The notes beneath the pieces were generated by a model that saw only the letters and a list, made by a program, of their open reading frames with translations, had not been told where the DNA came from and searched no databases. The translations under genes and the position numbers were made by a program. Below are positions 833 through 39,831 of a stretch of DNA of 39,831 bases, in pieces. Positions within the stretch are counted from its first letter, which is position 1. Each line of letters opens with the position of its first letter. The stretch comes from Desulfovibrio sp. (GTDB lineage Bacteria; Desulfobacterota; Desulfovibrionia; Desulfovibrionales; Desulfovibrionaceae), in assembly GCA_031279825.1 (NCBI GenBank), contig JAITHT010000032.1:1-39831 (forward strand), read 5' to 3'.

Positions 833-1369
833 ATGAGACTGCGCGTTATGTTCTCCGTCGCTCTGATGCTGGTCGCGTCGGCGTCTCTTGCCTTTGCTGA
901 ACCCGCCACTTCCGTAAACGCGGATATAGCCGGGGGTGACAGCGATTCCATGGCCTATTCCTTGAATATAGCCCAAAAATATGCTCCATGGTTTTCCAAC
1001 GGCGCTTTCGAATGCGGCCCTGTTGCGGAAATCGGCGGTCATGCCTGGATAGACAATACATCGCATGAGGATACCGTATGGGGAGCCCATATTTCTCCCG
1101 GCATCTACTTCACGCTCTTTACCGACGCGTCCATCCGTCCCTTTATGTCCGTCAAAGTGGGAGGAGCGCTGAACAGCCGGGATCACATGGATGATCGCAA
1201 CTTCGGCAGCCATTTGCTGTTCAGAACCCGGGGGAGCGTCGGGGCGTCCTTCGGCGAAAATTACCGACATACGCTCCAGGGCAGCTATACTCATTATTCC
1301 ACCTGGGGAATTACCAGAACCAATGACGGATACGGCACTTACGGCGTCTCATACGGCTATTCTTTCTAG
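833..1369 (+). CDS. PagL-like outer membrane protein (acyloxyacyl hydrolase family)
   Basis: A 178-residue protein with a signal peptide (residues 1-22, cleavage after AFA) followed by alternating hydrophobic beta-strand segments ending in an aromatic residue (GYSF), the usual end of an outer membrane barrel. The C-terminal HYSTWGI (His154, Ser156) matches the HxS motif of PagL lipid A 3-O-deacylases (PF09411), and the spacing to the C terminus also fits. The glutamate that completes the PagL catalytic triad about 12 residues later is not present in the expected place (Gly-rich NDGYGTYG instead), so activity is uncertain. The start is ATG 833, placed 7 nt after a perfect AGGAGG (821-826); an upstream TTG at 797 in the same frame lacks such support. 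A family A repeat begins directly after the stop. Confidence 0.65.
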   Translation: MRLRVMFSVALMLVASASLAFAEPATSVNADIAGGDSDSMAYSLNIAQKYAPWFSNGAFECGPVAEIGGHAWIDNTSHEDTVWGAHISPGIYFTLFTDASIRPFMSVKVGGALNSRDHMDDRNFGSHLLFRTRGSVGASFGENYRHTLQGSYTHYSTWGITRTNDGYGTYGVSYGYSF

Positions 1370-1495
1370 AGCGGACTAACTTTGAAACGTTGCACTCGTC
1401 GCCCTCGGCGAAAACAAGTTTCGCCTGTTCCTCGTGCACGAGAGCCGGCGCTTACGCTGTCGGTTGCCAGAGCATTTTCAAAGTGAAAATACTCC
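1370..1495 (+). repeat. Family A hairpin repeat, copy 1
   Basis: Starts directly behind the stop codon of the PagL-like gene. It contains the central hairpin GGCGAAAACAAGTTTCGCC, a GC-rich middle and the palindrome GAGCATTTTCAAAGTGAAAATACTC. It is nearly identical over more than 100 bp to the copy behind fliD (6152-6277) and to inverted copies at 10106, 29408 and 39711. The hairpins could act as a transcription terminator or protect the mRNA 3' end. Confidence 0.85.
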
Positions 1496-1602
1496 GGGGC
1501 CGGCGCCATATCTTTAAAAATTATGCATTTCGCCTGTGCCTGCGGGCGCGCGGAACTGTCGCCGCGAGAGCGATTTATTTCACCCCCCACCCGACGGTCT
1601 CT

Positions 1603-2741: not shown

Positions 2742-2891
2742 CTAATGCCGGACGCCGCCGACGGCGACATCGTACTGGCCGCGAACCTGCGTCCGCGCGC
2801 AGGCGCTGAGTCCGACGCACAGCAGCAGAACGCAGAAGACGCGCAACCATACGCCTGAGGAAAAGTATCGTGTATTTTTTGCATGCATCAT
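2742..2891 (-). CDS. Small lipoprotein
   Basis: A 49-residue protein with a basic N terminus, a hydrophobic stretch (residues about 16-30) and a lipobox LSAC with Cys31 as the lipidation site, leaving a mature peptide of only 19 residues. It would be anchored in a membrane by the lipid. The start is ATG 2891 or the adjacent ATG 2888; both are preceded by AAGGAAG, which belongs to the family B repeat, so the repeat supplies the ribosome-binding site. It ends 8 bp before the pseudouridine synthase start and the two are probably cotranscribed. Very small lipoproteins are common in Desulfovibrio, but no function can be assigned. Confidence 0.6.
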   Translation of the reverse strand: MMHAKNTRYFSSGVWLRVFCVLLLCVGLSACARTQVRGQYDVAVGGVRH

Positions 2892-2978
2892 CAGAACTTC
2901 CTTTGTGGTCTGAAACCCCTGCCGCAAGGCCATATAGCCCCGACCCCGCCATGAAGGCCTTCGCTACCTCATTTGGAT
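2890..2978 (-). repeat. Family B mobile repeat, copy 1 (short form, 89 bp)
   Basis: On the minus strand it begins ATCCAAATGAGGTAGCGAAG and ends GGAAGTTCTGAT, the same borders as the copies at 18166, 21540 and 29151. It lacks the internal segment found in the longer copies. Its 3' end provides the Shine-Dalgarno and the start region of the small lipoprotein. Confidence 0.8.
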
Positions 2979-3426
2979 GCAGCGCTCCTTACGCGAATAC
3001 AGTATCAGCGACGCGACGTGAGTATCCTGCACAGGCAAAGCCGTCCCTGACACATACCCCGAATCCTTCCGTCACTCAAGCCATCTTCAAGTTCTACGTA
3101 CAGACCTCGTCCGCCGTACGGCAAAAAACGCCTTCCGCGCCTTGCGCCCCGCGAAATGCTCCGGCGGCGCCGAATAAAGCGCGGCGGCGCTCGCGAAATT
3201 GGCGCAGACGGGCTTTGCTCGCCGTGAAACGGCAATTCCATGGCGAAAACGCTCTCAACGACGCTAAATATTTCCGCCGCCGTGCCGATATAACAGGCAG
3301 GCGGAAGACTGCCGCGTCGGTACGGGTTACGCGCTCAGTCATGTTGGCATCAAGCTTGCTTGCAGGCCACAAAGACTCCTGAACAGAACACCATACCGGG
3401 CAATTTTTTCCCACCGGAGAATCTCC
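2979..3426. other. Intergenic region upstream of fliD
   Basis: A 448-bp gap between the family B repeat and fliD. Apart from the doubtful minus-strand frames noted at 3094-3342, it holds the fliD Shine-Dalgarno GGAG at about 3416. No convincing sigma-70, sigma-54 or sigma-28 promoter was found by eye. Confidence 0.4.
3094..3342 (-). CDS. Possible small hypothetical protein (weak)
   Basis: An 82-residue frame starting MTERVTRTDAAVFRLP and ending in a Cys-containing tail. It is Arg- and Ala-rich, has no recognised domain and no clear Shine-Dalgarno. Another minus frame (3005-3241) overlaps it and looks equally plausible by codon use, so this 450-bp stretch between the lipoprotein and fliD may hold a frameshifted or decayed gene. 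No known function is offered. Confidence 0.22.
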   Translation of the reverse strand: MTERVTRTDAAVFRLPVISARRRKYLASLRAFSPWNCRFTASKARLRQFRERRRALFGAAGAFRGAQGAEGVFCRTADEVCT

Positions 3427-6150
3427 ATGGTACAATACGCATCCGGCAGCATAAAATTCAGCGGACTCGGCAGCGACACCGACTGGCAGGACGTGATCAA
3501 CAAGCTGTATTCCATAGAATCCCGCCACGCCAATCAACTACTCAAATGGAAAGAGGACTGGCAACAGCGCCTTGAGGCCTTCCGGCTGATCCGTACGGAA
3601 ATGCTCAACATGCAGACCGCCCTGAGCAGCATAAACTCCGTCAACAAATTTCTGGTGAAGACCGCCGCCAGTTCCAACGACAAGGTCGCCACCGCCGTCG
3701 CCGGCGCCGATGCCCTGAACGGCACCTATACCCTGGAGGTGAACAGCCTCGCCTCCCAGTACTCCTGGAGCATGAACACCAACCTGTTCGACAAAAACGA
3801 CGTGATCTGCACCGATCCCGGCGGCGGGACGTTCCAGTACAGCTACCAGGGCGCGCAGCGCACCCTGCACATACCGCCGGGCACCACCCTTGAGGGTCTG
3901 AAGAACACCATCAACAACGACTCCCTGAACCGCGGCGTCAGAGCGCAGCTCATCACCACCCAGACCGGCATCGTCTTTCAGTTGAACAGCAAGGACACCG
4001 GCAGCGCCAACACCCTGATCCTGCAAAATACCGACAACATACTCCCCTTCGGCCCCATGAGCTTCAGCAGCCAAAAGTATGACGAGCAGCCGGGCAGGGT
4101 CTCCCTGACGACTCCCTTCTCATCGATGACTGACTTCATCAACAGCACCGGCTCCACCCAGACCTTCGTCTTCACCATCGACGGAAAAAAGGCGAGCATA
4201 GCCGTGCCCGACGGCGCGACCATCCAGGATCTCGTGGACGACATCAACGCTTGGGGCGCGGCCAACGTCCCCTCCCATAACGGCGAACCGATCGCCTCCC
4301 TGACCGGCACCGGACCGTATACCTTCACTCTGGCGAAAAGGGATTCCGTCTACGGCGCGGGCACGTACAGCGACGATTTGCTGAACGCGCTCACCACGAG
4401 CTACGCGAGCGCCGGCGATCCGATCGCCGCAGGCGCCGCCGGCGACTACGACTTTGAGATCATCGGTCCGACTGGCGCTCCTATGACCGTCTCCACCGGC
4501 GCCTTCGGCGGCGGGACGCTTAGCGCTCTGCGCAATTTCCTGCAAGGGGAGGCTGACGCCGTCACCTCAGGCATGGGCGTCAGCACCACCGTCAGCATCA
4601 TCGACGATCCCGCAAATCCCGGCAAGGTCAAGTTGAGCTTCGGTCCGGTGGTCAACGACACGTTGCGAGGCATCATGACCAACCCGTACGGCGCCGTTAC
4701 CGATGTCGTCGATACAAGCTCCGGCCCCCTGCAGATCCAGCTCACTCTCACCAATTCCGATCTGCCGGGACAGGCCGGAGACACTATGACCATCAACATA
4801 CCCCAAAACGCGCCGCTCACCATCGGACAACTGTGCGACACCCTCAATCAGGGGCTGGGGAGGAGGGGCACGGCCAAGCTGGTGTCCATCGGCGGCGGGC
4901 AATTCGAGATGGTCATCGAGACCAAAAGCGCCGGCCACAGCGTCACCGTGAACAAGGGCACCTTGAGTTCCATGTCGTACGAACTCCCGGTGAACTCAAG
5001 CGGCTGGCTGGCCGTAGAAGGCGTGAACGCGGAAATCCGGGTGAACGGCTGGCCCGCCCCGCCGGAGTACGTGGAATCGGCCAGCAACAGCATCGCCGCG
5101 GGCGACATCATCGAAGGCCTGAGCCTGACCCTGCGTTCGGTGGGCAGCACCGTCATCACCGTCGCCAACGATATGCAGAAAATAGCCGACAACGTCACCA
5201 CCTTTGTTTCGGCCGTCAACAGCTTCCGTACGCTGCTGCAAAGTCTGACGCAGGTTACCGAAGACAAAAAAACTCTGGACCCCGGATATTCCGACTCGCT
5301 TTTTGAAATGCAAAAAGGGTCTATCCTGACGGGCAACTACGGCGTCCAGCTTATCAGTTCGCGCATGAAGTCGGCCGTGGCCCAAGCCGCCCTGGGCTTC
5401 GTGCGCCAGAGCAAGGATCCACTCACCGGCTACGTGAGCGGCGACGTCTTCTCCTCTCTGGCGGAAATAGGCATCACCACCAACGCCTCTCAGGGGAACG
5501 CCAACTACGGCCTGCTGGACATCAACACCATCCCCGGACTCCATGGACTGAGGACTCTGGAGGAGGCCCTGACGCAAAATGCGGAGGCGGTGGCCAAATA
5601 CTTTTCCACCGCAGGCGAAGGAGTGAGCAACACCCCGCATCTCTTTCAGTACAGTTCCCATCTCATGGGTGTGGCCCAGCCGGGCACCTATGACGTGCAG
5701 TATGCCATCGACTCCGCCGGCGACATCATATCCGCCTCTATCAACGGCAAGGCGGCCAGTATAGATAACAGCAACAGACAAATAACGCTGCTCGCTCCCG
5801 CCGGCGACCCGGCCCGAAGCATAGCGCTGAACATTTACGACCTGAACACCGGCACGCACCAGGGCTCCGTAAGCATCAAGGAAGGCAAGGTCAACGAACT
5901 CCTTTCCATGATGAACGGCTCCGAGGGTATGCTCGGCACCAACGGAACGCTGGCCAATCTTGAAAAGAACTACCAGACGATCATTGATAATATAGACAAA
6001 AAAATCGAGCAGGAAGACGCCCGCCTGAGCAAATGGCAGCGGACCATGAACATGAAGTTCTCCCGCCTTGAAACCCTTTTGGGCACATATAACAGGCTCA
6101 ATGAAGGTCTGAAGAGCCAAATTACCCAGCTCAACAAGAGCGACAACTAA
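3427..6150 (+). CDS. fliD: Flagellar filament-capping protein FliD (HAP2)
   Basis: A 907-residue FliD, the cap at the tip of the flagellar filament under which flagellin polymerises. The N-terminal FliD_N region (residues about 10-110, with FSGLGSDTDWQDVINKLYSIE and a helix rich in coiled-coil character) and the C-terminal FliD_C region (about 540-890, ending in a long coiled coil TLLGTYNRLNEGLKSQITQL) are clear. The middle (about 110-540) is an expanded Thr/Gly/Ser-rich domain; typical FliD proteins have 450-700 residues, so this is a large version with extra surface domains. ATG 3427 follows CCGGAG with good spacing. fliS lies downstream, as in most flagellar clusters, separated by a family A repeat beginning 2 nt after the stop. 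Confidence 0.95.
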   Translation: MVQYASGSIKFSGLGSDTDWQDVINKLYSIESRHANQLLKWKEDWQQRLEAFRLIRTEMLNMQTALSSINSVNKFLVKTAASSNDKVATAVAGADALNGTYTLEVNSLASQYSWSMNTNLFDKNDVICTDPGGGTFQYSYQGAQRTLHIPPGTTLEGLKNTINNDSLNRGVRAQLITTQTGIVFQLNSKDTGSANTLILQNTDNILPFGPMSFSSQKYDEQPGRVSLTTPFSSMTDFINSTGSTQTFVFTIDGKKASIAVPDGATIQDLVDDINAWGAANVPSHNGEPIASLTGTGPYTFTLAKRDSVYGAGTYSDDLLNALTTSYASAGDPIAAGAAGDYDFEIIGPTGAPMTVSTGAFGGGTLSALRNFLQGEADAVTSGMGVSTTVSIIDDPANPGKVKLSFGPVVNDTLRGIMTNPYGAVTDVVDTSSGPLQIQLTLTNSDLPGQAGDTMTINIPQNAPLTIGQLCDTLNQGLGRRGTAKLVSIGGGQFEMVIETKSAGHSVTVNKGTLSSMSYELPVNSSGWLAVEGVNAEIRVNGWPAPPEYVESASNSIAAGDIIEGLSLTLRSVGSTVITVANDMQKIADNVTTFVSAVNSFRTLLQSLTQVTEDKKTLDPGYSDSLFEMQKGSILTGNYGVQLISSRMKSAVAQAALGFVRQSKDPLTGYVSGDVFSSLAEIGITTNASQGNANYGLLDINTIPGLHGLRTLEEALTQNAEAVAKYFSTAGEGVSNTPHLFQYSSHLMGVAQPGTYDVQYAIDSAGDIISASINGKAASIDNSNRQITLLAPAGDPARSIALNIYDLNTGTHQGSVSIKEGKVNELLSMMNGSEGMLGTNGTLANLEKNYQTIIDNIDKKIEQEDARLSKWQRTMNMKFSRLETLLGTYNRLNEGLKSQITQLNKSDN

Positions 6151-6151
6151 T

Positions 6152-6277
6152 GCGGATTGACTTTGAAACGTTGCACTCGTCGCCCTCGGCGAAAACAAGT
6201 TTCGCCTACTCCTCGTGCATGGGAGCCGGCTCTTACGCCGCCGGTTGACAGAGCATTTTCAAAATGAAAATGCTCTT
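6152..6277 (+). repeat. Family A hairpin repeat, copy 2
   Basis: Begins 2 nt after the fliD stop codon. It has the core hairpin GGCGAAAACAAGTTTCGCC and a perfect terminal palindrome AGAGCATTTTCAAAATGAAAATGCTCT (6250-6276). It sits between fliD and fliS, two genes usually transcribed together, so if it terminates transcription it would separate their levels. Confidence 0.88.
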
Positions 6278-6295
6278 AGGTAAGGGAAAACAACC

Positions 6296-10074: not shown

Positions 10075-10105
10075 CGGCCGCCCCGACGATCTCGTTTGCC
10101 CGGCC

Positions 10106-10232
10106 AGAGCATTTTCACTTTGAAAATGCTCTGGCAACCAACAACGTGAGCGCCGGCTCTCGTGCGCGAGGAGTAGGTGAAACTTGTTTTCGCCGAGGGC
10201 GACGAGTGCAACGTTTCAAAGTTAATCCGCTC
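10106..10232 (-). repeat. Family A hairpin repeat, copy 3 (inverted)
   Basis: Reads as family A on the minus strand: on the plus strand the palindrome AGAGCATTTTCACTTTGAAAATGCTCT comes first and the GGCGAAAAC-type hairpin follows, ending CAAAGTTAATCCGC. It lies behind the rubredoxin stop and next to a family C unit. Confidence 0.87.
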
Positions 10233-10236
10233 CAGG

Positions 10237-17968: not shown

Positions 17969-18165
17969 CTAGTGTCATGTCACCCTTGATATGTCGCCGT
18001 ATAAATTGAGGTAGCCTTTCCTCCAAGCAGGGGAGGAAATTATGCCGAGAGTTTTATACCGAGTGACGTTGACGCAAGAAGAGCGGGTCTTGCTCCAAGA
18101 AGTATCGACGAGGGGTAAGCATAGTAGTCAAAAGGTACTCAATGCTCTCATTGTATTGGGATGTG
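17969..18165 (+). mobile_element. Truncated IS630-family insertion sequence (left end)
   Basis: Starts with CTAGTGTCATGTCA, the same terminal repeat as the internally deleted element at 19084-19332, and continues with the start of an IS630-type transposase. The right part is missing; a family B repeat joins at 18166. Confidence 0.7.
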
Positions 18166-18191
18166 ATCCAAATGAGGTAGCGAAGCCCTGA
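18042..18191 (+). pseudogene. IS630-type transposase fragment, N-terminal end
   Basis: ATG 18042 is preceded by GGGGAGGAAAT. It encodes MPRVLYRVTLTQEERVLLQEV and about 20 further residues that look like the N-terminal helix-turn-helix start of an IS630 transposase, and then runs into the family B repeat, where it stops at 18189-18191. It has no catalytic DDE part, so it is not functional. Confidence 0.7.
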
Positions 18192-18226
18192 AGGGCGGGG
18201 TCTCAGACCACAAAGGAAGTTCTGAT
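18166..18226 (+). repeat. Family B mobile repeat, copy 2 (shortest form, 61 bp)
   Basis: ATCCAAATGAGGTAGCGAAG at the left and GGAAGTTCTGAT at the right, with most of the interior missing. It truncates the transposase fragment. It is followed by GAAATGACTTCTA, a short sequence also seen at 20334 and in the inverted repeat at 21872-21909. Confidence 0.75.
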
Positions 18227-18301
18227 GAAATGACTTCTATTGATGCTATACGAAAAGCCGCCGTCGCAAAGGCGTTTGCCGCGGGCGACTGAAAGAAACA
18301 G

Positions 18302-20122: not shown

Positions 20123-20143
20123 CGGGCGATGTAGCGGTAATAC

Positions 20144-20262
20144 TAACTTTGCAACGCTGCACTCGTCGTTGACGGCGAAAAGAATTTTCGCCTGCTCCTC
20201 GTGCGCGTAAGGCAGCGCTTACGCTGCCGGTTGACGAGCATTTTCAAAATGAAAATGCTCTA
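20144..20262 (+). repeat. Family A hairpin repeat, copy 4
   Basis: Starts about 20 bp after the Nudix-like gene. It is more diverged than copies 1-3: the core hairpin is GGCGAAAAGAATTTTCGCC and the terminal palindrome is GAGCATTTTCAAAATGAAAATGCTC. The changes in the two hairpin arms compensate each other, which argues that the structure matters. Confidence 0.85.
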
Positions 20263-20371
20263 CAATCAGGTAATCTCTGGTATTTGCTCATGAATCTCGA
20301 TTATCAGATTTTTATGACTTTTTCTGGAACGATGAAATGACTTCTAATCAACCGTATGGAGGGACGCTCTG

Positions 20372-21514: not shown

Positions 21515-21539
21515 CCCAAAAGCTTGAGACCCTGTTTTC

Positions 21540-21692
21540 ATCCAAATGAGGTAGCGAAGCCCTTCAGGGCTTCGCGTCTCGTTTTTACCCCTCCCGAGCT
21601 TTCCTCCCCGGAAAGAAACCCCGCCCTTCATGGCGGGGTCGGGGCTATATGGCCTTTCGGCCGGGGTTTCAGACCACAAAGGAAGTTCTGAT
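21540..21692 (+). repeat. Family B mobile repeat, copy 3 (long form, 153 bp)
   Basis: Bounded by ATCCAAATGAGGTAGCGAAG and GGAAGTTCTGAT. It contains hairpins at 21554-21575 and further on (CCGCC..GGCGG; GGCCTTTCGGCC). The final GGAAGTTCTGATG offers a ribosome-binding site and an ATG for a frame encoding 16 residues (MTKQPKNTHVSPAAYC) in the DNA behind. Confidence 0.85.
21554..21586 (+). terminator. Terminator-like hairpin within family B copy 3
   Basis: GCGAAGCCC (21554-21562) and GGGCTTCGC (21567-21575) form a perfect 9-bp stem with a TTCA loop, followed by GTCTCG and five T residues. It lies 40 bp after the secG stop and could end the tpiA-secG transcript. Confidence 0.5.
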
Positions 21693-21760
21693 GACAAAGC
21701 AGCCGAAAAACACTCATGTGTCACCGGCTGCTTATTGCTGATGCAAGGCCTTGCGGCTAC

Positions 21761-24350: not shown

Positions 24351-26285
24351 ATGCCGTTTTTTCTTCGTTCAGTCGCAGATCTCTTCGCTCGCCGCAGTTC
24401 GCGGCATGTACCGCCGCTTATCGTCTTCGGCGCTCTGGGGCTGTTCTTCGGTCAGCCTAATTCCGCCTTTCACTTTCCTGCGCTTGTCCTGGCCTTCCCC
24501 TTTTCCCTGTATCTGCTCTCGGCTCTGGCCCCTTCGGATATAAGCGCTTTTTTCCGTTGCTGGCTGCTTAGCCTTGTCGGGCACTCAGCCGGCCTGTACT
24601 GGCTGGTTAATCCCATACATGACGTGGGCGGCCTGCACTATTCCTTGGCCGCGCCGCTCGTGCTTCTGGCCGCAACCTATCTGGCGTGTTATTCCGCCCT
24701 GGCGGGTCTCGGCATGCGCTGGATTCGCCGGCTTTTCGGCCTCGACAAGCCCGAATCCCCACAGACATCCGCCGGCATTGCAGCATCATCCCCAATCGGC
24801 ATGCGCTCGAGCGTATGTACCCAGGAGTATTGTAACTTTGAGGCGCTCCATTCGGCATTGCCGGCGAAAATGACTTTCGCCTGCACGTCATGGGCGCGCG
24901 GCGCACTTCGCTTTGCACCACGAGAGCAATTTCATTCTCAAATTGCTCTCGGCGCTTTTCTGGCGGCTTCTTTTCTCGCCGGACTTATATATGCCGGATT
25001 TGAAACCTTATGCGGTACCCTGTTCACCGGCTTTCCCTGGTTTACTTTGGCGAGTTCCTTCGTTCCATGGCCGGCTTGGATCCAGATGGCTTCCCTTATC
25101 GGCAACCATGGATTGACCGCCTGTTTCGCCGCTTCCGCGTGTCTTGGCGCAGCCGCCTTCATCGCCTCCTCCCGGCGCGAACGTATCACGGCGGCAATAG
25201 TGAGCTTGCTCCTGGCAGGGATTCCACCCGTCTACGGCGAACTCCGGCTTGCCGAACCTCCGCCTGATCTCTCTGGCCCGCCCGTATCGATCATTATGAT
25301 ACAAGGCAATATTGATCAAAATCAAAAATGGGACCCGCAATTTCAAAAAAGCACCATAAACCATTACCTGCAAATGTCCTTGTCGGCACTCAACAGACTG
25401 CGCGCGACACAGCCGGACATCATTCCGGATCTCGTTCTCTGGCCGGAAACCTCCATGCCTTTTTACTTTCATGCCCATCCGGAATACTCCGCCCGTCTGC
25501 GTCGTTTCGCCGCTGAACATACCGTCAATCTGGCCTTCGGGGCATTAGGGGCAACCCTTGACGCGCGTAACGAGACGACTTTCGGCCCCTTGTACAACAG
25601 GCTCTATTTGCTCTCGTCCAAGGGCGAACTCAACGGAATTTACGATAAACAGCACCTTGTACCCTTCGGCGAATATATCCCCTTTGCCGCTTTCTTGCCT
25701 TTTTTACAAAATATAGCGCAAGGGTTGGATTTTTCCCCAGGAAGTATTACCGCTCCTCTCCCGCTCTCCGGGCATCAAACGCAGCCGCCTCCACCGGTCG
25801 ACGCGCCACCGCCCTCTTCAGACCACGCGATCCTTCCGCCCTCCCACGAACAACGACCGACACTCCTCGGGGTTCTCATCTGTTATGAAGCCATTTTCCC
25901 TTCCCTTGCTCAGGAACGTGTGAGAAACGGTGCCACTGTCATCATAAACATCAGTAATGACGGCTGGTTCGGCGAAAGCTCCGCTCCATTGCAACATCTT
26001 TATCTCACTGCCATGCGCGCTGTCGAGCAGGCCCGCCCCATTGCGCGGGCGACGAATACGGGCTATACTGCGGCAATAGATGCCAGAGGACGTATCAAAA
26101 CGCGCAGCGCTCGTTTGTTCACCGATGAAACGCTGCTTGCCCAGGTGCAGCCGTCTCGTGAAATCACGTTGTATCATCGTATGCATCCCATGCCGGAAGT
26201 GCTGCTGATTGCGCTGGCGGTTCTGTCATTCTTGGCCTATACCTTACCCCGTGCTTTACGCGGTCTCACAATCAATACGCTCTAA
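24351..26285 (+). CDS. lnt: Apolipoprotein N-acyltransferase Lnt, with repeat-derived insertion
   Basis: A 644-residue inner membrane enzyme that adds the third acyl chain to lipoproteins. The N-terminal part holds several membrane segments; the periplasmic nitrilase-like domain carries the catalytic triad Glu366 (WPETSMP), Lys433 (YDKQHLVPFGEYIPF) and Cys511 (LICYEAIFPSL). The usual length is about 500-510, so this protein is about 130 longer. About 65 extra residues lie between membrane segments around 130-200, and 24835-24951 within them is a diverged family A repeat read in frame (residues about 162-200). A second Pro-rich insertion of some 26 residues (about 472-500) lies between Lys433 and Cys511. 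The catalytic parts look intact. Confidence 0.93.
   Translation: MPFFLRSVADLFARRSSRHVPPLIVFGALGLFFGQPNSAFHFPALVLAFPFSLYLLSALAPSDISAFFRCWLLSLVGHSAGLYWLVNPIHDVGGLHYSLAAPLVLLAATYLACYSALAGLGMRWIRRLFGLDKPESPQTSAGIAASSPIGMRSSVCTQEYCNFEALHSALPAKMTFACTSWARGALRFAPREQFHSQIALGAFLAASFLAGLIYAGFETLCGTLFTGFPWFTLASSFVPWPAWIQMASLIGNHGLTACFAASACLGAAAFIASSRRERITAAIVSLLLAGIPPVYGELRLAEPPPDLSGPPVSIIMIQGNIDQNQKWDPQFQKSTINHYLQMSLSALNRLRATQPDIIPDLVLWPETSMPFYFHAHPEYSARLRRFAAEHTVNLAFGALGATLDARNETTFGPLYNRLYLLSSKGELNGIYDKQHLVPFGEYIPFAAFLPFLQNIAQGLDFSPGSITAPLPLSGHQTQPPPPVDAPPPSSDHAILPPSHEQRPTLLGVLICYEAIFPSLAQERVRNGATVIINISNDGWFGESSAPLQHLYLTAMRAVEQARPIARATNTGYTAAIDARGRIKTRSARLFTDETLLAQVQPSREITLYHRMHPMPEVLLIALAVLSFLAYTLPRALRGLTINTL
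24835..24951 (+). repeat. Family A hairpin repeat inside lnt, in frame
   Basis: ACTTTGA at the left, core hairpin GGCGAAAATGACTTTCGCC, GC-rich middle, and terminal palindrome GAGAGCAATTT..AAATTGCTCTC (24922-24950). Both the order and spacing match the intergenic copies although the bases have diverged. It is read through without a stop as CNFEALHSALPAKMTFACTS and further residues, in a loop between membrane segments of Lnt. Confidence 0.75.
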
Positions 26286-26300
26286 CAGGATCGTATCCCT

Positions 26301-27417
26301 ATGTACCAGCTTGCCGAACTGAAATCCGCCTCCGTCGCTCTTCGCGAACAATTTTTTTCCTTACGAGGGCGCCTTTGACTTGGAAAGTACGACACGCCGC
26401 CTGGAAGAAATTGAAAAACAGTTCTCAGCGCCCGATACCTGGAAGCAACCGGATGCCCTGACTCCCGTACTGCGGGAAAAAAGCCGTTTGGAGGGGGAAC
26501 GGGAGCGCTTTTCCCGTCTGCTGCATGCCGGGAACAATATGGAAGACTGGTTGGCCCTAGCGGGAGAAGAGCCTTCCGACGAAGCTCTCGCCGGCCTGAA
26601 TGACGCCGTGAACGTCCTGCGCGCGCTTCTGGAGCAGGCGGAAATGGATATGCTCCTGCCGGAAGAAGAAGATAGCCATCCGGCTATTCTGGATATTCAT
26701 CCCGGAGCGGGCGGCACCGAAGCCCAGGACTGGGCGGCCATGTTGTTGCGCATGTATCTGCGCTGGGCGGACAGCCACGGGTGCAAAAGCGAATACCTAG
26801 ATTACCAGAGCGGCGACGAAGCCGGAATCAAGAATACAACCTTTCGCATAACCGGCCCTAACGCTTACGGCTTGCTTAAAGGAGAAAAAGGCATACATCG
26901 CCTGATTCGCCTTTCTCCTTTCGATTCTTCAGGCCGGCGGCACACATCCTTTGCCTCAGTGGACGTATTACCTGACGCCGGACAAGAAATTTCCATCGCC
27001 ATTGAAGAAAACGATTTGCGCATCGACGTTTTCAGAGCGGGCGGTTCCGGCGGCCAGCATGTGAACAAGACCAACTCCGCAGTACGCATAACGCACCTGC
27101 CCACCGGCATTGTCGTGCAATGCCAGAACGAAAAATCGCAGCACAGCAACAAAGATTCCGCCATGTCCGTATTGCGCGCCCGCCTTTATGAAAGGGAATT
27201 ACAAAAACTGGCCGATGAAAAAAAATCACAGTACTATGATAAGGAAGCCATTAACTTCGGCAGCCAGATACGCACCTATACCCTGCAACCTTACCGTCTA
27301 GTCAAAGATCACCGGACAGGAATCGAGGTATCGGATGTGGAAGCCGTGCTTGACGGCAATCTCGACAAACTTATACGATCTCTGTTATTATACCGGCATG
27401 CCAATGGATCGTCATAA
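26301..27417 (+). CDS. prfB: Peptide chain release factor 2, programmed +1 frameshift
   Basis: RF2 recognises UGA and UAA stop codons. It is read as 26301-26375 joined to 26377-27417, giving 371 residues (E. coli 365). The first 25 codons end CTT, followed by an in-frame TGA (26376-26378); skipping one T continues in the +1 frame as GAC TTG GAA. The second part carries the anticodon-mimic SPF (RLSPFDSSGRRHTS) and the peptidyl-hydrolase GGQ (AGGSGGQHVNKTNSAVRITH). ATG 26301 lies 15 bp behind lnt. The next gene overlaps its 3' end. Confidence 0.96.
26366..26379 (+). promoter_or_regulatory. RF2 autoregulatory frameshift site
   Basis: GAGGG (Shine-Dalgarno-like), CGC, CTT TGA C. The three-base spacing between the GAGGG and the slippery CTT and the UGA-C context are those known from E. 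coli prfB. When RF2 is scarce, the pause at UGA permits the +1 shift and full-length RF2 is made. Confidence 0.93.
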
Positions 27418-29098: not shown

Positions 29099-29406
29099 AC
29101 GTGTTAACACTATAGAATTTTTGTTCTCTGGCAAGGAAGATGAGTCTGCCATCCAAACGAGGTAGCGAAGCCCTGAAGGGCTTCGCGTCTCGCGCTTAGG
29201 AAGGATTTGGACCCCTCCCAAGCTTCCGCCCCGGAGAGAAACCGAAGCCCTTCAGGGCGGGATCGGGGCTATATGGCCTTGAGGCCGGGGTTTCAGACCA
29301 CAAAGGAAGTTCTGATGAGGGAATATACTCTTACGGTATTTGACCGAGATGACAGACACAATCTGACGCAGCCAGAGGGCAAAAAGGCATAGCGTTAACA
29401 GACCTT
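29099..29406 (+). repeat. Family C unit, copy 2 (interrupted by family B)
   Basis: Begins 2 nt after the MinD-like stop with ACGTGTTAACAC and ends GCGTTAACAGACC, the same borders as 10237-10380. Outside the inserted family B element the two copies differ at only a few bases. The 25-residue frame is kept here too (MREYTLTVFDRDDRHNLTQP and so on, 29317 region to 29391), now with the family B Shine-Dalgarno in front. Confidence 0.72.
29151..29316 (+). repeat. Family B mobile repeat, copy 4 (166 bp, inserted in family C)
   Basis: Starts ATCCAAACGAGGTAGCGAAG and ends GGAAGTTCTGAT. In family C copy 1 the same place reads GCCATGAGGG without any insert, so the element occupies a clean insertion between CCAT and GAGGG, with AT as the possible 2-bp target duplication. 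Confidence 0.85.
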
Positions 29407-29407
29407 G

Positions 29408-29527
29408 GAGCATTTTCACTTTGAAAATGCTCTGTCAACCGGTTGCGTAAACGCCTGCCCAAACGCACGAGGGGCAGACAAAACGTGTTTTCGCCGAGGA
29501 CGACAAGTGTAGCGTTTCAACGTTACT
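29408..29527 (-). repeat. Family A hairpin repeat, copy 5 (inverted)
   Basis: On the plus strand the palindrome GAGCATTTTCACTTTGAAAATGCTC comes first and the GGCGAAAAC-type hairpin later. It directly abuts the family C unit and lies downstream of the minus-strand dual-CXXC gene. Confidence 0.85.
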
Positions 29528-29542
29528 CTCTCCGAGAAAGCT

Positions 29543-39702: not shown

Positions 39703-39710
39703 ATGCGCTT

Positions 39711-39831
39711 AGGGCATTTTCAAAGCGAAAATGCCCTGTCAACTGACAGCGTAAGCATCGGCTCTCGTGCACGAGAAGTGGGCGAAACTTGTTTTCGCCG
39801 AGGGCGACGAGTGTGGCGTTTCAAAGTTAAT
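39711..39831 (-). repeat. Family A hairpin repeat, copy 6 (inverted), reaching the window end
   Basis: AGGGCATTTTCAAAGCGAAAATGCCCT comes first on the plus strand, with compensating changes in both arms compared with other copies. The GGCGAAAC-type hairpin and the CAAAGTTAAT end follow up to the last base of the window. It lies behind rpoC. Confidence 0.85.

Follow-up and report, generated by a model that had tools for sequence, protein, structure and literature searches.

The stretch of DNA considered here (the window, 39,831 nucleotides from a Desulfovibrio sp. contig) contains an open reading frame of 644 codons without a stop, the product of which is a true apolipoprotein N-acyltransferase (Lnt) of 644 amino acids. 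The NCBIfam model TIGR00546 gives 264.9 bits against a cut-off of 132.9, the Pfam LNT_N and CN_hydrolase domains are both found and E. coli-type Lnt structures are matched with an E-value of 2e-32. Glu366, Lys433 and Cys511, which an earlier note on this DNA had named as the catalytic residues, were confirmed by codon numbering; they are intact and all lie outside a palindromic repeat located within the gene. The ORF that follows lnt (window 26302-27417, from an ATG at 26302) is presumably prfB, for release factor 2, and we take the motif cgcctttgac near 26370-26380 to be its programmed frameshift site. The gene and the parts of its repeat are as follows.

24351..26285, forward strand: lnt, apolipoprotein N-acyltransferase, with the repeat inside (TIGR00546, Pfam and structure matches)
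24824..24950, forward strand: full-length repeat copy of the lnt-type subfamily (ungapped match to all 127 positions of covariance model R1, 122.2 bits)
24863-24869 / 24875-24881, forward strand: internal GGCGAAA / TTTCGCC arms (from the sequence; letters common to both subfamilies)
24922-24932 / 24940-24950, forward strand: terminal palindrome GAGAGCAATTT...AAATTGCTCTC (from the sequence)

The repeat is 127 nt long, complete and ungapped, and extends from the third base of Lnt codon 158 through codon 200, which amounts to about 42 extra residues; the predicted peptide SSVCTQEYCNFEALHSALPAK would span the left border into the repeat. The earlier note had described a repeat at 24835..24951 that lies in frame and free of stops within lnt. 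The locus was right and the 644-aa frame bears out the reading, but the true start is 11 nt earlier. The order of parts that it gave is likewise kept, with ACTTTGA (24835-24841), GGCGAAA...TTTCGCC and the terminal palindrome all present. Two covariance models of 127 positions each were used: R1, from 14 lnt-type copies with lnt left out, and R2, based on 23 members of the subfamily predominant in the window (the majority subfamily). The R1 score of the lnt copy corresponds to E-values of 1.8e-27 in the window and 1.0e-25 in the genome and ranks it 8th among at least 149 R1 matches in the genome, while R2 finds the same site at 24827-24951 with 58.9 bits (E 6.7e-12). Five of the window's six other copies were aligned locally with 24824-24950; their scores of 31-47 were reached, for each of the five references, by 0 of 1000 dinucleotide shuffles (best shuffle 23.5), so that the resemblance to the family, on which both covariance models agree, is better than that of shuffled sequence. 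The description of the segment as a diverged copy of the window's intergenic family stood in part: it is a member of the family, but it belongs to a sister subfamily of those intergenic copies. Its nine best full-length relatives, all from its own genome, are 78-83% identical to it, and weaker matches follow below these. The six further copies in the window, all of the majority subfamily, are listed here.

1368..1497, forward strand: majority-subfamily copy (R2 149.9 bits, 1371-1497; R1 71.2 bits, 1368-1496)
6149..6278, forward strand: majority-subfamily copy (R2 147.6 bits, 6152-6278; R1 74.4 bits, 6149-6277)
10104..10233, reverse strand: majority-subfamily copy (R2 142.8 bits, 10104-10230; R1 70.4 bits, 10105-10233)
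20135..20263, forward strand: majority-subfamily copy (R2 128.9 bits, 20138-20263; R1 72.9 bits, 20135-20262)
29405..29534, reverse strand: majority-subfamily copy (R2 113.4 bits, 29405-29531; R1 52.9 bits, 29406-29534)
39709..39831, reverse strand: majority-subfamily copy, cut by the contig end (R2 118.7 bits, 39709-39831)

A second dispersed repeat family, different in sequence, is also present in the window (2888-2979, 18165-18228, 21539-21694 and 29150-29318).

The genome from which the window derives (G000) is a draft of 2,226,111 bases in 94 contigs, 83% complete. At E ≤ 0.01 it yields at least 149 matches to R1 and at least 146 to R2, with the best 150 candidates scored for each model, and the union, from which the weakest R2 matches are left out, comes to at least about 183 copies. 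A search of the same genome with a single window copy, in which 40 of 189 candidates were scored, gave at least 52 matches, 40 of them long (at least 112 of 132 nt) and 12 single hairpins. When 36 genomes were searched with R1 at E ≤ 1e-4, matches were found in 13, comprising 12 of the 15 from the genus and one from another genus of the family (G017, 24 copies). The numbers per same-genus genome are at least 96 in G000, at least 96 in G013, 73 in G009, 51 in G006, 41 in G004 and 1-12 in the others; in G002, G005 and G010, also of the genus, no copy was found at this threshold. No Rfam family matches the repeat at the gathering threshold, the one match being a tRNA.

Both subfamilies are built of an outer stem, the GGCGAAA/TTTCGCC arms, a GC-rich hairpin and the terminal palindrome, and they differ in length and open frame. 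The arms pair with each other in the majority-subfamily consensus fold and are unpaired in that of the lnt type. In the latter, 5 of the 23 predicted pairs change on both sides, as do 3 of 10 pairs of the terminal hairpin in the subfamily alignment, and the covariation term for the whole fold is unfavourable (+0.36). Conservation across copies has dropped to background level by 3-4 nt beyond each end, and for this reason the repeat can be regarded as a discrete unit. Its ends read YT-RGAGC and GCTCY-RR and carry terminal inverted repeats, 5' RGAGCA and 3' TGCTCY, each position of which is found in about 80% or more of copies. Among the 121 copies with R1 scores of at least 50 bits, TA is the commonest end dinucleotide (55 at the 5' end, 51 at the 3' end), and both ends agree in 30, against 30.0 expected from independent ends; with agreement no greater than expected, a TA duplication is possible at most. 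Of 343 layouts compared with mispaired flanks, none gave a target-site duplication of 2-8 nt that stood out clearly (best z 2.4), and no long autonomous element sharing the repeat's ends was found in the fetched stretches, which represent part of the genome. Two matches to Y1_Tnp lie above the cut-off in G000.

C53:15692-16015: gene for a Y1-type (IS200/RAYT-like) transposase; the frame is open over 220 amino acids
C80:40031-40225: short fragment of a Y1-type transposase gene, with a stop

No clear support was found for a RAYT flanked by the repeat: near the C53 gene there are just two weak, overlapping repeat matches, 1.1-1.2 kb away, at a solitary hairpin. Solitary terminal palindromes of 29 nt without the rest of the repeat are found in G000 at C19:54376, C26:24061, C89:3286, C53:14523 and elsewhere. 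There are also head-to-tail pairs with almost no spacer (C80:51599-51862, C85:29072-29314 and C81:1532-1762); in the C80 and C85 pairs the lnt-type copy comes first, and in a few places it is a majority-type copy that follows the lnt-type one. The pairs look as if one end of the repeat were a preferred target for the next copy.

An Lnt match was obtained in 57 of the 59 genomes searched (G000 included), with 30 loci returned, that of G000 among them. The alignment comprised 29 Lnts, 12 of the same genus, 11 from other genera of the family and six from the order. Two of them are incomplete, that of G012 with 410 aa and that of G008, near a contig end, with 478 aa. The repeat segment is absent from all 29, including the 12 of the genus, and no repeat-free genome was seen to carry the same Lnt segment: G005, in which no copy is found at E ≤ 1e-4, lacks it. 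The window's Lnt has 74 residues in the span 128-203, where the 12 same-genus proteins have 0-26 and the other 17 have 1-2. The clean borders anticipated for such an alignment were found in part. On the right, homology restarts in most rows at residue 202, two past the repeat's last codon at 200, but the borders are not fully clean. The left one falls in a loop of variable length. Without the 42 repeat residues this loop would have about 32, and as this exceeds the 0-26 of the genus, the repeat by itself does not account for the left side, and the loop holds other additions. The alignment also places unrelated loop residues within the repeat region, about ten from G005 and two from G007; pairwise Lnt matches begin at residue 188 for G005 and at 186 for G013. 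No exact empty site was found among the Lnt relatives, the best of which is 55% identical. A wider contig search for Lnt returned five loci, the best 39-41% identical, from Desulfovibrionaceae and Deltaproteobacteria MAGs, and the insert is absent in all four of these that were aligned. Lnt had also been called unusually long, to which the repeat does add residues, but part of the length is accounted for by a separate proline-rich stretch at residues ~468-508 (window 25752-25875) of variable length, with 39 residues here as against 10-58 in the same-genus Lnts and 10-16 in those of other genera.

The placement of the repeat in a loop between membrane segments, away from the catalytic residues, agrees with the alignment to E. 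coli Lnt, which puts it in the H4-H5 loop. The counterpart of Lnt residue 206 in 5vrg is chain position 126, approximately E. coli residue 124, because Cys387 is chain position 389. Arg123 of E. coli Lnt is described as lying on the cytoplasmic end of H5, with both termini of the protein cytoplasmic (PMC5500888), so the insertion site is, by alignment, predicted to be the cytoplasmic H4-H5 loop.

We consider it very probable (about 0.9) that the segment 24824-24950 represents a palindromic repeat, MITE-like and non-autonomous, which was inserted in lnt and is tolerated there. The repeat would have been moved by a transposase acting in trans on its ends and would have entered a permissive loop of lnt, where it was presumably kept because the added codons brought neither a stop nor a net frameshift. 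The whole ORF would be translated through the insert, as suggested by the open frame and the collinear flanks, and the ~42 added residues may form a tolerated cytoplasmic loop between H4 and H5. The periplasmic active site should keep working, with little effect on acyl transfer, and the insert would thus be neutral or close to it. Under a parse of the ends as TA-GAGC...GCTC-TA, the net addition to lnt would be 126 nt, or exactly 42 codons. This parse, which fits somewhat under half of copies at each end, is hypothetical because the lnt copy has AG and TC at those places.

The genome was also searched with the covariance models for other copies inside genes. Of the 183 copies, 46 lie within an ORF that is 60 aa or longer and runs on for 15 codons or more beyond both ends of the repeat; 31 of these ORFs were scanned with Pfam, 15 among the shorter ones being left out, and a Pfam family was found in seven. 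Two more proteins emerged in which the repeat stretch is absent from relatives, making three in-frame insertions that relatives support: Lnt, a CI/S24-type repressor and a ferredoxin-type membrane protein.

C34:743-867: copy in the CI/S24-type repressor (R1 63.6 bits, R2 107.1 bits)
C50:2489-2615: copy in the ferredoxin-type membrane protein (R1 45.8 bits)

For each of the two additional proteins, 10 of 15 fetched loci were aligned. The copy in the repressor is of the majority type and sits between the HTH (8-71) and S24 (169-287) domains. A relative of 253 aa in G004 matches residues 2-85 and 145-296 with nothing between, and the borders are not clean, because several relatives carry short linkers of their own at this place. 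The membrane protein has its one close ortholog in G005, in which query residue 305 is followed by 370 and the two matches abut in the DNA; one stop is flagged in this G005 match, for which the aligned open frame is 504 aa. Several other candidates were set aside. The copies in a methyltransferase (C16:16222) and in RimM (C16:131095) are N-terminal, where the true start may be downstream; that of an EF-hand protein is upstream of the likely start; and that of a DUF4911 protein forms an extension at the 3' end and scores weakly (26.9 bits). The ORFs at C16:16222 and C56:20967 gave no homolog in 25 relatives at E ≤ 1e-6; for the former just the repeat part was matched, in G013. A G013 copy (L310) in an open frame of 386 aa likewise lies upstream of a likely start.

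In all three proteins the repeat is read in its +1 frame. This is the sole open frame of the six in the lnt-type consensus, and in the majority consensus it contains a stop. Among the 183 copies, +1 is open in 68 (8 of 16 lnt-type and 60 of 167 others), +2 in 60 and -2 in 63, and since +1 is open about as often as the other two, the shared frame can at most be called suggestive. The lnt-type net length with TA-like ends is most commonly 126 nt (4 of 16 copies), and it is a multiple of three in 7 of 16 lnt-type copies, compared with 16 of the 105 copies that form the next class by score. It is tempting, though in our judgment doubtful, to extend this to a repeat family of the genus that seeds peptides into unrelated proteins via +1, with the lnt-type branch being frame-compatible; as the repressor copy is of the majority type, Lnt alone is clearly a case of such a branch.

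The same data bear on the strongest alternative, in which the insert is a functional module that positive or purifying selection has maintained as a regulatory or binding loop. A frame that is open over all codons and read alike in three unrelated proteins would fit, as would the finding that 10 of the 20 differences between the lnt copy and the R1 consensus fall at third codon positions (119 of 346 in the other copies, pooled). That excess is not significant (p 0.10), however, and so gives no significant sign of codon-level constraint on the lnt insert; the +1 counts above set this frame little apart from +2 and -2, and the loop is highly variable within the genus, so we regard selection for a function as improbable. 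Still less probable is that the lnt ORF is decaying or disrupted, open by luck, with the real Lnt elsewhere. The insert is large and an 83% complete draft leaves room for a further gene, but the catalytic Glu, Lys and Cys, the domains and the 644 stop-free codons speak against it, and there is no second Lnt among the own-genome matches listed, the best 3 of 15, which are lnt itself and two repeat copies, the remainder being weaker. It is barely conceivable that the sequence arose in lnt and that the gene was the source of the subfamily: the lnt copy is full-length and ranks 8th of at least 149, but copies are present in genomes whose Lnt lacks it, such as G004 and G013. Chance resemblance, with GC-rich loop DNA happening to form hairpins, was raised as a caution in the earlier note, which favoured insertion, and it can be dismissed on the match to an lnt-free model (E 1e-25) and the 0/1000 shuffles.

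The insertion of a tolerated mobile repeat has known counterparts, and the repeat in lnt represents a new family in a new lineage, of a kind known from the Rickettsia palindromic elements (RPEs) and intragenic ERIC. The comparison with RPEs, already drawn from the sequence, is apt for the manner of working: they are fused in frame in protein genes (PMC2229807, PMC10969869; Ogata et al. 2000, 2002), are likewise dispersed palindromic units of ~105-150 bp that occur both intergenically and, in frame, within conserved proteins, and carry an open frame, which here is seen in the lnt-type consensus and in 68 of the 183 copies. An RPE-bearing guanylate kinase is described as staying active with changed substrate affinity (PMC2229807). 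In contrast to the 3 of ~183 copies here, nearly half of the first-reported R. conorii RPEs are given as lying in proteins (PMC10969869); the host lineage is different and the genome here larger. The two are likened by kind. The intragenic ERIC/RU-1 described by Delihas (2007, PMC2759123) is also a 127-bp unit, mostly intergenic, with open frames and occasional in-frame fusions, and ERIC shares the TA at its termini and short terminal inverted repeats (PMC2229807), but a target-site duplication is listed for ERIC and none was detected for this repeat. The Correia/NEMIS elements of Neisseria have two size classes that differ in open frames, as here, and also in their frequency inside genes, whereas their terminal inverted repeats are longer (24 bp) and their host is another (PMC2229807); no subfamily contrast in gene insertion is apparent for this repeat, because the Lnt copy is lnt-type and the repressor copy majority-type. 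The REP/REPIN-RAYT systems resemble it in high copy number and palindromic structure (PMC3116915, PMC2817692, PMC3733652), and the solitary terminal hairpins and one Y1-type transposase gene of G000 are further likenesses, but REPs are 20-40 bp long (PMC3733652) and the repeat here is 127 nt. Among the literature matches listed, none dealt with translated palindromic elements in Desulfovibrio and none joined such elements with Lnt.

Translated palindromic repeats are best known in Rickettsia and less so in enterobacteria and Neisseria. This Desulfovibrionaceae-like genus adds a further case, with a separate family and three in-frame insertions backed by relatives, and allows one to ask how repeat length and open frame decide which insertions survive. 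There is a warning here for annotation as well, in that such inserts show up as unexplained loops in conserved proteins. The copy number of the family is very uneven across the 12 of 15 genomes of the genus that hold it.
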